Position numbers and translations under genes: made by a program. Positions 1,839 through 28,406 of a stretch of DNA of 33,879 nt are shown piece by piece (the stretch's first letter is position 1; every line of letters begins with the position of its first letter). Source of the stretch: Bacteroidota bacterium (GTDB lineage: Bacteria > Bacteroidota > Bacteroidia > JABDFU01). The DNA lies in NCBI GenBank assembly GCA_016183775.1, contig JACPDY010000128.1:1-33879 (forward strand), in the 5' to 3' direction. A model generated the notes under the pieces. That model was given only the letters and a program-made list of their open reading frames with translations. It was not told the DNA's origin and searched no databases.

Positions 1839-1954
1839 AAAGGCTTCATAACATAAAAGTCAGCAAAAAACAAGTTCTAAATCAGGTTTACAAAACAAGT
1901 AATTAACGCAGGGGTGTGGATTTTATTACGCCTCACCCGTTATCCTGGGTAATG

Positions 1955-2042
1955 GAACGCAGATTGTTATGATCCTTATGATAAAAATATGATTTATTTG
2001 TGCCATCATAACAAATCATAACCATCATAAAAATCAGCGTTC
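1955..2042. mobile_element. MITE-like element, copy 1, with the ends of the GxxExxY cassette
   Basis: An 88-base sequence bounded by 28-base imperfect inverted repeats, GAACGCAGATT... (1955-1982) and ...AATCAGCGTTC (2015-2042). The left end is the A-type end (GAACGCAG) and the right end, read in reverse, the T-type end (GAACGCTG). Each matches the corresponding end of the GxxExxY cassette at 10634-11088 at about 26 of 28 positions, but in opposite orientation. The 32 bases between carry no gene. No clear target-site duplication is visible. Confidence 0.65.
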
Positions 2043-2082
2043 TATTCGGAAAAGCAACTGACAAGGGGAGGCTCTTATTTAC

Positions 2083-2090
2083 TACTTTTG
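2083..2090 (+). promoter_or_regulatory. Duplicated -7 box, upstream copy
   Basis: TACTTTTG fits the Bacteroidota -7 consensus TAnnTTTG and is the counterpart, in repeat copy 1, of the box at 2298-2305. A convincing -33 TTG at normal spacing is not visible. If active it would start a transcript that runs through the second 88-base element before reaching the glycosyltransferase. Confidence 0.3.
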
Positions 2091-2169
2091 TTAAACAATA
2101 TGAATTACAAAACAAGTAATTAACGCAGGGTGTGGATTTTATTACGCTTCACCCGTATTCGCGGTAATG

Positions 2170-2257
2170 GAACGCAGATTGTTATGATCCTTATGATAAA
2201 AATATGATTTAATTATGCCATCATAACAAATCATAATTATCATAAAAATCAGCGTTC
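2170..2257. mobile_element. MITE-like element, copy 2, with the ends of the GxxExxY cassette
   Basis: Second 88-base element inside repeat copy 2, with inverted ends at 2170-2197 and 2230-2257. Its T-type end (2257 back to 2230) differs from the left end of the GxxExxY cassette at one of 28 positions. It lies 41 bases before the -7 box of the glycosyltransferase, and as RNA from an upstream start would fold into a long hairpin. Confidence 0.65.
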
Positions 2258-2297
2258 TATTCAGGAAGGCAGCGGACATGGGGAGGCTCTTATTTAC

Positions 2298-2305
2298 TAC
2301 TTTTG
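2298..2305 (+). promoter_or_regulatory. -7 promoter box for the glycosyltransferase
   Basis: TACTTTTG matches TAnnTTTG and sits 10 bases before the ATG at 2316, leaving a very short leader. The -33 element is not obvious, so this is a partial promoter call. Confidence 0.4.
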
Positions 2306-2315
2306 TTAAACCAAA

Positions 2316-8738: not shown

Positions 8739-9038
8739 ATGAAATCAACACCAAATATAAGACCTGAAACTTTTTGGGATACTGATTTTTCAAAAATAAA
8801 TTTTGATAAACAATATCAATCTGTTATCACCCGGGTATTTAATTACGGTACTATGAAAGATGTAATTGAAGTTTTAAAATACTACAAAGCCGATTTTGTT
8901 AAAGATATATTAGTAAATACAGAAAACAATTTACACTATAACGCCATAGATCTTGCGAAAGCTATTTTTCAGCTTAAAGATTCTGATTTCAAATGCTCCA
9001 GAAGTCCGCTGTTTCAGCAGAGTTATACCAAACATTAG
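8739..9038 (+). CDS. DUF6922-like protein, likely antitoxin partner
   Basis: A 99-residue protein with FWDTDFSKINFDKQYQSVI near the N-terminus and VFNYGTMKDVIEVLKYYKAD following, the pattern of DUF6922-type proteins (Phe-Trp-Asp, an invariant helix with RV..YG, then a second helix with YY). Members commonly precede AbiEii-type nucleotidyltransferase toxins in Bacteroidota, as here, and are presumed to be the antitoxin. The toxin gene starts inside its last 46 bases, so translation is coupled. No DNA-binding motif is obvious, although the palindrome at 8677-8706 would be a natural operator. The family assignment is from memory of the motif; the antitoxin role is inferred from context. Confidence 0.72.
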   Translation: MKSTPNIRPETFWDTDFSKINFDKQYQSVITRVFNYGTMKDVIEVLKYYKADFVKDILVNTENNLHYNAIDLAKAIFQLKDSDFKCSRSPLFQQSYTKH

Positions 9039-9652
9039 TCAAACTAATGGAGTTGGATTTATTACATGACCATCGCTTAGTTGGCGGAACAGCACTTGCC
9101 CTCCAAATAGGACATAGATTGTCTGTAGATATTGATTTGTTTTCCGATCAAAAACACAATTACGAGCAGATAACGAACACTCTCGCTAAAAAATTTAATG
9201 GCAACTTAAATATTATCAGATCAAATACCGATGGTATTACATTATTTATAAATACAATTAAAACAGATATTTACGATTGGGATGTACCATTTAATCACAT
9301 ACCATTTATTGAGAATAATATCCGGATGGCTTATAAAAAAGACATAATACCAATGAAGTTAAATACATTTTGCTCTTCCCATGATGCAAGATATGAGAAA
9401 AAAGACTATACTGATATTGCCGCATTGTTAAGGGAATACTCACTTAGCACTATGATTGACTTATATTTTCATAAGTATACTCAATCTTATTTGAATGAGC
9501 GGATAATAATCGAAAGGTTAGGCCACTATACAAAAGCTGAAAGCAATGGCAGCACAATGCCAATTATGCTTGATGGCAGCACATGGGATGACGTAAAGAA
9601 GCAAATTGACAAATCGATTAATAGTTATATTAATGAAAATATGAACGAATGA
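8993..9652 (+). CDS. AbiEii/AbiGii-type nucleotidyltransferase toxin
   Basis: A 219-residue protein. Residues 30-50, VGGTALALQIGHRLSVDIDLF, carry the AbiEii nucleotidyltransferase motif: GGT at 31-33 and the paired metal-binding acids Asp46 and Asp48. Later KLNTF and the KKDYTDIAALL block match the other conserved motifs of the family. Known AbiEii toxins block growth by transferring nucleotides, in some cases onto tRNA ends, and give abortive phage resistance. The start overlaps the DUF6922 gene by 46 bases. The stop overlaps the ATG of the epimerase gene by four bases (ATGA at 9649-9652), so the toxin reads directly into the sugar operon. The acceptor substrate cannot be deduced. Confidence 0.87.
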   Translation: MLQKSAVSAELYQTLVKLMELDLLHDHRLVGGTALALQIGHRLSVDIDLFSDQKHNYEQITNTLAKKFNGNLNIIRSNTDGITLFINTIKTDIYDWDVPFNHIPFIENNIRMAYKKDIIPMKLNTFCSSHDARYEKKDYTDIAALLREYSLSTMIDLYFHKYTQSYLNERIIIERLGHYTKAESNGSTMPIMLDGSTWDDVKKQIDKSINSYINENMNE

Positions 9653-10629: not shown

Positions 10630-10633
10630 AATA

Positions 10634-11088
10634 GAACGCTGATTTTTATGATCATTATGATAAATTAAGATGAGTAACTACAAGTATTCAGAGATCACTA
10701 ATACAATTATTAAATGTTACTATAATGTTTACAATACATTAGGGTACGGGTTTCTGGAAAAAGTCTATGAAAACGCTCTCCTGATCGAACTAATGAATAA
10801 TGGTTTGCGATGTTCAGCTCAATATCCTGTTGAAGTTTATTATAGCGCTAAAAAAGTGGGACAATATTTTGCCGATATAATCGTAAATGAATGCGTTATC
10901 ATTGAAATAAAAGCCGCCGAAGCTTTATGTGAAGAGCATGAAGCACAATTAACCAATTACCTCAAAGCAACTAATATTGAGGTCGGTCTGCTTCTTAACT
11001 TTGGCAAAAAGACAGAATTCAAAAGAAAAGTCTTTACCAACGAATATAAAATCATAACTGATCATAACGATCATAAAAATCTGCGTTC
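10634..11088. mobile_element. GxxExxY cassette bounded by 28-base inverted repeats
   Basis: The left end GAACGCTGATTTTTATGAT... (10634-10661) and the right end (11061-11088, reverse complement GAACGCAGATTTTTATGAT...) agree at 26 of 28 positions. They enclose almost exactly one gene, the GxxExxY protein at 10670-11101, whose ATG comes eight bases after the left repeat and whose C-terminus is encoded by the right repeat. The ends differ at the seventh base (T left, A right), and the same two end types occur in the 88-base elements at 1955 and 2170. The insertion leaves the epimerase stop and the aminotransferase start intact. No obvious target duplication is seen, and no transposase is encoded. 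Confidence 0.7.
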
Positions 11089-11101
11089 CCTTCGATCATG
11101 A
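10670..11101 (+). CDS. GxxExxY protein (PDDEXK_3 nuclease-fold family)
   Basis: A 143-residue protein. GFLEKVY at 27-33 is the name-giving GxxExxY motif. ADIIVNECVIIEIKA supplies Asp69, Glu79 and Lys81, the arrangement D-x9-ExK of PD-(D/E)XK nucleases, and Pfam places this family there as PDDEXK_3. Gln92 after the active site (EAQLTNYLKA) is also typical. Biochemical function of the family is not established to my knowledge. The last 15 residues (ITDHNDHKNLRSLRS) are mostly the translated right inverted repeat of the cassette. The stop overlaps the aminotransferase ATG as ATGA (11098-11101), so the gene is translationally coupled into the sugar operon although its fold has nothing to do with sugar synthesis. 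Confidence 0.9.
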   Translation: MSNYKYSEITNTIIKCYYNVYNTLGYGFLEKVYENALLIELMNNGLRCSAQYPVEVYYSAKKVGQYFADIIVNECVIIEIKAAEALCEEHEAQLTNYLKATNIEVGLLLNFGKKTEFKRKVFTNEYKIITDHNDHKNLRSLRS

Positions 11102-13371: not shown

Positions 13372-13399
13372 AACTTTTTAGATAAATTAACAGTTGCAG

Positions 13400-13843
13400 A
13401 TGAGTAGTTATAGACAAATATTCTACCAGATAGTCTTCAGAACAAAATCGAACAAACACGCTTTGACTGAAGAACATTGCGATGAACTATACAAATATAT
13501 TAGTGGCATTATAAAAAATAAAAATTGCACTATTTACAGGATCAATGGCGTTAGCGACCATATTCATATTGTTTGCGATTTACATCCTTCAGTAGCGTTA
13601 GCAGACCTTATAAAAGATATTAAAATAGCCAGCAATATCTGGATGAAGAATTCAGGAAAGTTTCCTGATTTTAATGGTTGGTCTGATGGCTATGGTGCGT
13701 TCACTTATTCTATAAAAGAAAAAGACAGGTTGATAGAGTATGTAAAAAACCAATAAGAGCACCACAAAACATTTACCTTTATGGATGAATTTAGAAAGCT
13801 GTTAATTGAACAAGGAATTGAATTTGATGAAAAGTATTTATAA
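13400..13843 (+). pseudogene. REP-associated tyrosine transposase (Y1/HUH), broken by an in-frame TAA
   Basis: From the ATG at 13400 (MSSYRQIFYQIVFRTK, the family's normal N-terminus; an earlier TTG at 13394 is not needed) the frame reads 118 residues. HUH motif His54-Ile-His56 in GVSDHIHIV binds the metal, and Tyr98 in GWSDGYGAF is the probable nucleophile. At 13754-13756 a TAA stands where relatives have Glu in KNQEEHH. Beyond it the same frame continues without shift as EHHKTFTFMDEFRKLLIEQG and on to a TAA at 13841-13843, which is the normal family ending (FDEKYL). A single G-to-T change (GAA to TAA) therefore truncated a 148-codon gene. The N-terminal piece retains HUH and Tyr but lacks the last helix, so it is probably inactive. 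Confidence 0.88.
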
Positions 13844-13852
13844 TCGCAATAT

Positions 13853-14051
13853 TCAACCCTTATCAGGGTTGAGGTATCGTTTTACTTTTGTAACCATGCG
13901 TTTCACGCAAGGTTATTCATATTTAAGTCCTTCGGACTTATCCGCGGAAAGCATATAGAAATAGAATATAAATAATAAAAACATGAAATAGCCATCACGC
14001 CAAAAGGCGTGACCAACCGAAATGAATAATACGAGATGGCGTATTCCATCT
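13853..14051. repeat. Hairpin array, right of the transposase pseudogene
   Basis: Five different hairpins in 200 bases: TCAACCCT-TATC-AGGGTTGA (13853-13872), AACC-a-TGCG-(5)-CGCA-a-GGTT (13892-13914), TAAGTCC-TTC-GGACTTA (13924-13940), TCACGCC-AAAA-GGCGTGA (13995-14012) and AGATGG-(6)-CCATCT (14034-14051). A short TCCGCGGA palindrome lies at 13941-13948. The stems differ in sequence, so they are not copies of a single unit, but the first resembles the REP type on the left side. Confidence 0.8.
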
Positions 14052-14082
14052 GACAATTAAGAACTTACAAATTATATACAAG

Positions 14083-15069
14083 ATGAAAGTATTAGTTACC
14101 GGAGGATGCGGATTTATTGGAAGTCACACTGTTGACCGCCTGTTGCAGGATGGTCATGAAGTAATTGTAATTGACAATTTATCTTCGGGGAATGCCCGGA
14201 ACCTCGAACATCACAAAGACAATAAAAAACTGAGTGTACATATTGCAAGTATAACAGATCTTGAAAAAATTGAATCACTATTCAATGGAGTTGACTGGGT
14301 ATTTCATCTCGCCGCATTAGCGGATATAGTTCCATCTATAGAAAGACCGATGCAATATCACAATTCCAATGTAAACGGAACTATTTGTGTGCTTGAAGCC
14401 TGCCGTAAAAATAACGTAAAGCGGATAATTTATTCAGCCTCCTCTTCCTGCTTTGGCATTCCCGACACCTTCCCTACCTCTGAAACAGCGGAAATACGCT
14501 GCCAATACCCTTATGCCGTTACCAAATACCTTGGCGAAGAATATTGTTTGTATTGGAAACAGATCTATAAAATGAACATAACTTGTATGAGGTTCTTTAA
14601 CGTATATGGCCCCCGTGCCCGTACCGCCGGTACTTATGGAGCAGTATTCGGGGTTTTCCTCGCTCAGAAATTGAACAATAAACCCTACACCGTTGTGGGT
14701 GATGGTGAACAAACACGTGACTTTACCTTTGTTACAGACATAGTTGATGCCTGTGTGACAGCAGCTAAGCGCAATGATGTATCCGGACATGTATTTAATG
14801 TAGGCAGCGGTAACACCTACAGTATTAACAAACTTGTGGGGCTTCTTGGAGGTGAAATAACATATATCCCAAAACGTCCGGGCGAGCCGGATTGTACATT
14901 CGCCGACACTTCCAAAATATCAAAGCTGCTCGGATGGAAACCTAAAGTAAGCTTTGAAAAAGGAGTAAAAATAATGCTTGATAATATTGATTACTGGCGT
15001 GAAGCCCCGCTATGGGAACCTCATACAATTGCGGAAGCAACAAAAGATTGGTTTAAATACCTGGCCTAA
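14083..15069 (+). CDS. NAD-dependent UDP-sugar 4-epimerase-like protein (extended SDR)
   Basis: A 328-residue enzyme starting MKVLVTGGCGFIGSHTVDRL, with the NAD-binding GxxGxxG motif and IDNLSSG as in GalE/WbpP relatives. FHLAALADIVPSIERP, SASSSCFG and Tyr144/Lys148 (YAVTK) give the Ser-Tyr-Lys active site; MRFFNVYGPRA and VVGDGEQTRDFTFVTDIVDA are the sugar-nucleotide binding segments typical of UDP-hexose or UDP-HexNAc 4-epimerases. It stands alone after the hairpin array, converging with the giant adhesin gene 68 bases downstream. Probable role is supplying an epimerised UDP-sugar to the surface glycan. The C-terminal extension WEPHTIAEATKDWF is common in the family. Confidence 0.9.
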   Translation: MKVLVTGGCGFIGSHTVDRLLQDGHEVIVIDNLSSGNARNLEHHKDNKKLSVHIASITDLEKIESLFNGVDWVFHLAALADIVPSIERPMQYHNSNVNGTICVLEACRKNNVKRIIYSASSSCFGIPDTFPTSETAEIRCQYPYAVTKYLGEEYCLYWKQIYKMNITCMRFFNVYGPRARTAGTYGAVFGVFLAQKLNNKPYTVVGDGEQTRDFTFVTDIVDACVTAAKRNDVSGHVFNVGSGNTYSINKLVGLLGGEITYIPKRPGEPDCTFADTSKISKLLGWKPKVSFEKGVKIMLDNIDYWREAPLWEPHTIAEATKDWFKYLA

Positions 15070-27682: not shown

Positions 27683-27979
27683 ATGTCAGTACACATAAAA
27701 ACCTTCGACGAACTAACGAATTTACTTCGAAAAGAAAATATTTTCGAAAAATTCGGACTTAGTAAAATCGGAGTTTTTGGGTCCTTTATTCGTGGCGAAA
27801 AATACAATGATATTGATCTGTTAATTGAAGACAATATTGAATATGAGCAGCGAATCTCGTTGAAACAAACCCTTGAAAAACTTTTAAATACAAAAATTGA
27901 TATTGTAATAAAAAAATATGCCGAACCAATTATTTTGTTCCGTGCATTAAGGGAAATAAAGTATGCAACCCGCAATTAA
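27683..27979 (+). CDS. mntA: MNT-family nucleotidyltransferase antitoxin (MntA-like)
   Basis: A 98-residue minimal nucleotidyltransferase. GVFGSFIRGEKYNDIDLLIE supplies Gly33-Ser34 and the metal-binding Asp43 and Asp45; IDIVIKK later provides the third acid. MntA-type antitoxins silence the HEPN toxin by adding AMP units to it. The loop between GS and DxD is eight residues, shorter than the roughly ten usual in the family, but all key residues are present. The hepT-like gene starts within the last 17 bases. A TAATTTCG box (27659-27666), one mismatch from TAnnTTTG, lies 16 bases before the ATG; a -33 box is not clear. Confidence 0.85.
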   Translation: MSVHIKTFDELTNLLRKENIFEKFGLSKIGVFGSFIRGEKYNDIDLLIEDNIEYEQRISLKQTLEKLLNTKIDIVIKKYAEPIILFRALREIKYATRN

Positions 27980-28406
27980 AAACGATATTGTTTTCTTATT
28001 AATTATTCTTGAATCAATCGGAAAGATAGAAATCTACAAGCGAGATTTCAATTCCGGTGAAGTTTTTTTCACATCAAATGACCAATTGAATTTCAATGCT
28101 TCTCTTCTCTTATTAGCAAATATCGGAGAACAATGCTCAAAAATAAGTGATGAATTGAAAGACAAATATCCGAAAGTTGAATGGCAGAAAATAAAGAATA
28201 TCAGAAATCGTATTGTTCATGATTATACCGGCATTGACTCTGATCTCACCTTCAACATAATCAATACTGAATTAGTCCCACTCCGCAATTCTATCCATCA
28301 GATCATTGCAAACGAATTAAAAACAGGGAACTTTAACTCCGATGAATTAAAATTTGCAGGTAAAAGTGCATTTTATAGCCATGTTAATTTTAAGGCATTC
28401 ATGTGA
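27963..28406 (+). CDS. hepT: HEPN-family RNase toxin (HepT-like, DUF86)
   Basis: A 147-residue all-helical protein. IRNRIVHDY contains Arg81, His86 and Tyr88, the RX4HXY motif of HEPN RNases of the HepT type; the Tyr is the residue AMPylated by MntA in the Shewanella system. NIGEQCSKISDELK upstream is the usual first conserved helix. It forms a toxin-antitoxin pair with the overlapping mntA-like gene. The stop (TGA, 28404-28406) overlaps the GTG start of the helicase-nuclease gene (28403), so the pair reads into that gene. Confidence 0.87.
   Translation: MQPAIKNDIVFLLIILESIGKIEIYKRDFNSGEVFFTSNDQLNFNASLLLLANIGEQCSKISDELKDKYPKVEWQKIKNIRNRIVHDYTGIDSDLTFNIINTELVPLRNSIHQIIANELKTGNFNSDELKFAGKSAFYSHVNFKAFM

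Follow-up and report, generated by a model that had tools for sequence, protein, structure and literature searches.

The window considered here is the whole stretch of 33,879 nucleotides from a contig of a Bacteroidota bacterium. It contains, directly upstream of an open reading frame at 2316, two gene-less palindromic short elements and, further along, a cassette in which a gene for a GxxExxY family protein lies between two inverted arms (Table 1). A sequence-only reading of this DNA had delimited the two short elements by their cores, and these coordinates are exact; the ends of the cassette are confirmed at 10634 and 11088. According to that reading the short elements and the cassette have both ends in common, and recomputing the identities gave the same values, 26/28 for the A end against the A end of the cassette and 26/28 and 27/28 for the two T ends against its T end. 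The minus strand of the short-element A end does spell HKDHNNLRS, as had been remarked, and the likeness to the tail of the GxxExxY protein is the 3' arm of the cassette translated as final codons. Elsewhere the window carries two probable toxin-antitoxin-like pairs. One is a DUF6922 protein with an AbiEii nucleotidyltransferase (8739-9652); in the other (27683-28406), a Polbeta/NTP_transf_2 protein has behind it a 147-aa open reading frame that may encode its HepT/HEPN partner. The first three of these four proteins were recognized by Pfam.

Table 1. Positions of the short elements, their tandem duplication and the cassette in the window
Feature	Position	Strand	Description
Gene-less short element 1	1951..2046	-	AATGGAACGC...GCGTTCTATT; A end left, T end right; core 1955-2042
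Gene-less short element 2	2166..2261	-	Duplicate of element 1; core 2170-2257, 84/88 identical over the core
Tandem duplication unit 1	1888..2104	.	Holds short element 1, flanks and TACTTTTG promoter-like motif (2083-2090)
Tandem duplication unit 2	2105..2315	.	Holds short element 2 and second TACTTTTG motif (2298-2305); open reading frame at 2316 immediately downstream
5' (T) arm of GxxExxY cassette	10634..10671	+	GAT-word array GAACGCTGAT-TTTTATGAT-CATTATGAT; from arm alignment
GxxExxY protein gene (TIGR04256 / PF13366 PDDEXK_3)	10670..11101	+	143 aa; HMM matches, fold model
3' (A) arm of cassette	11051..11088	-	Repeats the 5' arm in inverted orientation; codes for the C-terminal protein tail
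Whole cassette, insertion unit	10630..11092	+	Congeners G003 and G004 have the two flanking genes without it between them

A 19-base pattern describing the ends (GAACGCWGATTNTTATGAT) has six exact matches in the window, one pair in each short element and a further pair in the cassette, at a chance expectation of 0.10 matches even with up to 3 mismatches allowed, and pattern and shuffle controls rule out that the palindromes arose by chance. Does the pair of short elements represent two insertions? A repeat search revealed tandem units at about 1888-2104 and 2105-2315 with a start-to-start distance of 215-217 bp and blocks of 92-100% identity, in which about 65 bp to the left and about 60 bp to the right of the short element are duplicated as well, including the TACTTTTG motif. 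Since both 88-bp elements sit in one tandem duplication of about 215 bp, the pair goes back to one insertion, and two independent insertions were rejected.

In the 4.54 Mb source genome the 28-base end has 18 matches at up to 2 mismatches, the reversed-pattern control none, and congener G004 one. The matches resolve to the one cassette, the duplicated window element, about eight further short elements (C80, C152, C103, C56, C21, C2, C131 and C42, of which C21 was picked up only with the 19-base pattern) and one truncated copy (C119), that is, about nine independent gene-less elements of some 87 bp and a single cassette with these ends. Such a genome-wide classification had been suggested in the first reading, and by it the polarity of one A end and one T end, from which kinship with the cassette had been argued, is not strict. 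Among the seven intact distinct short elements five have T/A ends (the window element, C80, C152, C103 and C2) and two have A/A ends (C56 and C131), in which strict polarity fails; C21 and C42 have one decayed end each. Moreover, the ends cross-match almost equally, as the short-element A end agrees with the cassette T end in 25/28 positions and the T end of element 1 with the cassette A end in 26/28, so that the polarity depends on about one base and the argument drawn from it is not supported.

Alignment of the short elements yields a consensus of about 87 bp (AATAGAACGCTGATTTTTATGATnATTATGATTTGTTATGATnAAATCTGCGTTnATCATAAnGATCATAATAATCTGCGTTCCATT), and most copies follow this one consensus with its own centre (ATCTGCGT). 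The window pair departs from it by a central expansion of 8-9 bp and is, in sequence, an atypical, locally duplicated short copy. With a length of 84-96 bp, terminal inverted repeats, no gene and single-strand folding z-scores of -4.2 to -7.0 indicating hairpins, the short elements have the make-up of MITEs, and their ends match in 26-27 of 28 positions those of the cassette of the same genome, which is the putative autonomous element. Rfam covariance models gave no match in the window at the gathering threshold.

What kind of protein is encoded by the cassette? By HMM it is a full member of the GxxExxY family, with 136.6 bits for TIGR04256 (cut-off 35) and 140.9 bits for PF13366 (cut-off 22), and it carries the signature and catalytic residues G27, E30, Y33, D69, E79, K81, Q93 and Y97. 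G25, G27, E30, Y33, D69, E79, K81 and R119 are invariant in an alignment of 51 proteins, and Q93 and Y97 are kept in over 90% of them, which corresponds to a PD-(D/E)XK fold with the catalytic D...ExK and the QxxxY motif of the RecB type. No sequence match to the window protein was found among solved structures. An AlphaFold model with a pLDDT of 92 has as nearest folds Cas4 SSO0001, LHK and lambda exonuclease, and Hjc resolvase (Foldseek E 8.5e-6 to 3e-3). The protein is thus predicted to be a minimal RecB/Cas4-like PD-(D/E)XK nuclease, and the model fits a minimal DNA nuclease acting on ends, junctions or hairpins. Unlike Cas4, lambda-type exonucleases and Hjc resolvases, to which its predicted fold is closest, it is a stand-alone protein of 143 residues encoded inside its own inverted arrays. 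The family is annotated as nuclease-fold protein with unassigned role, to which the window gene adds the flanking arrays and the gene-less relatives.

The arrangement of this gene is shared by its relatives. All five GxxExxY genes found by tblastn in the source genome, including two broken ones (L019 and L020), are bounded by inverted arrays of short words, each gene having its own word (TATGAT, CACAGAG, CGCAGAGG, ACGAAT or CGCAAAG), and gene-less copies are also present for other words than that of the window; an HMM search finds seven GxxExxY matches in this genome, and the arm analysis covers the five tblastn genes. In a public sample of 80 GxxExxY loci from Bacteroidota, Acidobacteriota, Verrucomicrobiota, Planctomycetota, Chloroflexota, Proteobacteria and other phyla, 77 of which had enough flank, the inverted-arm score exceeded the control maximum in 56/77 loci and in none of 368 controls of the same geometry from the same loci. 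In a second sample, 29 loci drawn by HMM score from Bacteroidota genomes, 22 scored at least 17 (control mean 10.8, maximum 19) and 13 exceeded the control maximum. About 25% of the GxxExxY loci have no arms above control, which may be due to decay or to a different arrangement. Self-similarity within the arms peaks at 9-10 bp in the public loci and at 9-12 bp in the second sample. Furthermore, proteins of higher identity have more similar arms (Mantel r 0.29, 0/2000 permutations). The two arms of an element are closer to each other than to any arm of another element in 38 of 53 cases. The word follows the phylogeny of the protein. A phage origin was rejected, as GxxExxY relatives occur in none of 50,697 phage records and only in 8 of 72,556 plasmid records.

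Comparison with congeners provides evidence for insertion. The genes that flank the window cassette are only 7 bp apart in G003, and in G004 the space between them is filled by 61 bp of other sequence. Of the other cassettes L018 is missing in G004 and G002 and L019 in G004. Empty orthologous sites were found for five short elements, for C103 in G004 and G002, for C2 and C80 in G004, for C152 in G001 and for C56 in G005, giving the polymorphism of insertion known from MITEs, and C42 and C21 are common to the source genome and G004. Since the cassette and the five short elements are missing at orthologous sites, both kinds are taken to be insertions; absence in a congener could partly be loss, and in several cases two congeners agree. 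In a search for target-site duplications none could be fixed, the boundaries being ambiguous owing to AT-rich junctions and divergent flanks. Cassette L017 is present at the same site in G004 as a unit of 465 bp with an intact gene, and its dN of 0.026 against a dS of 0.32 over 123 codons between the two genomes shows purifying selection on the nuclease after insertion, a result obtained for this one cassette common to two congeners. The window also has a palindrome at 1769-1840 (GCACGCACTTCGATAAACTCAGTTTGAGAACGTGCG), which is probably another dispersed repeat, as a similar sequence occupies the orthologous site of the cassette in G004.

Gene-less relatives are also found in other phyla. For five cassettes the genome of origin was searched with the arms, and among the 30 best loci, which were inspected, those near the gene are the cassettes. 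Short elements without the gene, or additional arms, that have the ends of the cassette occur in genomes of Acidobacteriota, Planctomycetota and Verrucomicrobiota: a Pyrinomonadaceae genome has several gene-less palindromes of about 100 bp with cassette ends (L277, L283, L287 and L291), a Planctomycetales genome has similar cases (L288 and L292), and a Verrucomicrobium genome has mostly solo arms without partner.

A parallel case is offered by genes of a different protein family. All nine genes for four-helix proteins of the S23/IVS type in the source genome (TIGR02436; L171-L179) are likewise enclosed by inverted word arrays, whose period in this one genome is 7 or 14 bp, and the elements L179, L173 and L172 are missing in congeners. 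At the G004 sites orthologous to L173 and L171 different repeats of the CCTCCCTTTGGGGAGG type are found (L264 and L265), which suggests insertion hot spots common to unrelated elements. Like the cassette, the intervening sequences of 23S rRNA genes with an S23 open reading frame, as in Coxiella, have one reading frame inside terminal inverted repeats and were proposed to be selfish (PMC4990558). The S23 protein, however, is helical and the period of its arrays is 7 instead of 9-10, and the classical intervening sequences, unlike the cassette, are located in rRNA and processed by RNase III. The window cassette was not assigned to these elements as it encodes GxxExxY and not S23.

How could gene-bearing and gene-less forms be related? 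We take the short elements, in our estimate with a probability of about 0.7, to be non-autonomous relatives of a minimal mobile element with the GxxExxY PD-(D/E)XK nuclease as its sole gene, and we infer that the nuclease mobilizes cassette and short elements alike. Each element is built from a pair of arms in inverted orientation, in which short words recur about every 9-12 bp; the gene-bearing form (about 455-475 bp in the source genome) has the nuclease gene between the arms, and in the gene-less form (about 87 bp) arm is joined directly to arm. The nuclease would recognize the word array of its element, probably by oligomerizing or by acting on an extruded hairpin or cruciform, and would cut there; repair would then copy the element into a new site, and the short forms would be mobilized by the nuclease in trans. 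In the window a single short element inserted among the promoter sequences of the gene at 2316, and a tandem duplication later copied it with its flanks. The GxxExxY loci without arms above control and the many solo arms of the Verrucomicrobium genome count against this reading. The common consensus with its own centre and the single cassette with these ends argue that the short elements spread as short elements. An integron was set aside as explanation, attC being located at one end of tandem cassettes.

The pair of forms is best read, by analogy, as resembling REPIN/RAYT or IS/MITE pairs with a different enzyme and different ends. In those systems, too, short intergenic palindromes share ends with one gene-bearing element and mobilization in trans is proposed. 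They use, however, an HUH/Y1 or DDE transposase, as opposed to the RecB/Cas4-like PD-(D/E)XK nuclease of the cassette, and their ends differ from the multi-word arrays with a period of 9-12 bp found here. It is conceivable, albeit unlikely, that mobility belongs primarily to the palindromes, driven by another enzyme such as a RAYT/Y1 transposase or an IS, and that the GxxExxY gene is a passenger in some of them. Gene-less copies exceed the cassette about 9 to 1, the S23 genes of another protein family occupy the same kind of layout, and the window has a Y1_Tnp gene of its own (13394-13756). The palindromes flanking this gene, however, are unrelated ones of its own, TATGAT-type ends are missing from its vicinity, and a random passenger would yield neither the association of arms and gene in many phyla nor a word that tracks the protein tree. 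Mobilization by the window Y1_Tnp as RAYT was rejected, as there are no shared ends and its palindromes are not those of the studied elements. The palindromes flanking this IS200/RAYT-like gene are REP-like (CCCCGACAGGGG...GCAAGCGGTGG). At 13982-14084 lies a repeat of about 95 bp that ends at a start codon (ATGAAATAGCCA...GGCGTATTCCAT...ACTTACAAATTATATACAA-ATG), found again at G000:C42:1978-2073 and in dozens of copies in the source genome and congeners, which has the look of a 5' leader or cis-regulatory RNA that recurs, and less that of a mobile element.

Quite improbable, in our view, is that the arms are functional sites of the host such as terminators, RNA hairpins or regulatory sites, that GxxExxY serves the host as a nuclease or in defence and binds beside its own gene, and that recombination spreads the arms. 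The strong hairpins, the intergenic placement and the purifying selection on one cassette would agree with such a role, but the units are present or absent as entire blocks at orthologous sites, most gene-less copies are species-specific, and the distribution of GxxExxY is patchy, with 1-12 copies in 59 of 118 sampled Bacteroidota genomes. Least credible is that GxxExxY cassettes repeatedly suffered internal deletions and left the short elements as dead remnants, which the shared ends and the missing gene would allow, since the short copies have one consensus of about 87 bp with a common centre and no gene remnants, and the single cassette with these ends in the genome speaks for multiplication as short elements. 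Of the kinship with the cassette that had been proposed from the first inspection, the shared ends therefore stand, as separate insertions of one family, and the origin by repeated deletion is not supported.

The reading as non-autonomous relatives of a nuclease-encoding mobile element has consequences beyond this genome. The layout of a nuclease gene between inverted word arrays in many phyla points to a class of minimal mobile elements that has hardly been described. In the open-access literature, with preprints and subscription papers mostly outside, we found no account of inverted arrays flanking GxxExxY genes, of mobility or of gene-less relatives; the strings of the words were not found there either, and GxxExxY appears as a gene label only, in one paper. 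More tentatively, one might envisage a transposable class crossing phyla, in which a lone Cas4/Hjc-like nuclease acting on word arrays with a spacing near the DNA helical turn, perhaps on extruded cruciforms, would move itself and gene-less elements, with a parallel S23 class using words of 7 bp, both together explaining many dispersed periodic palindromes of environmental bacteria. GxxExxY genes are common and no role for them was found in the literature; the arrays and the gene-less relatives give them a testable role as engines of mobile elements and suggest where dispersed repeats that lack another explanation could come from. Should the nuclease indeed mobilize these elements, the few enzymes that drive transposition would gain a RecB/Cas4-type nuclease among them, and a ready-made recognition code would be at hand in the word arrays.
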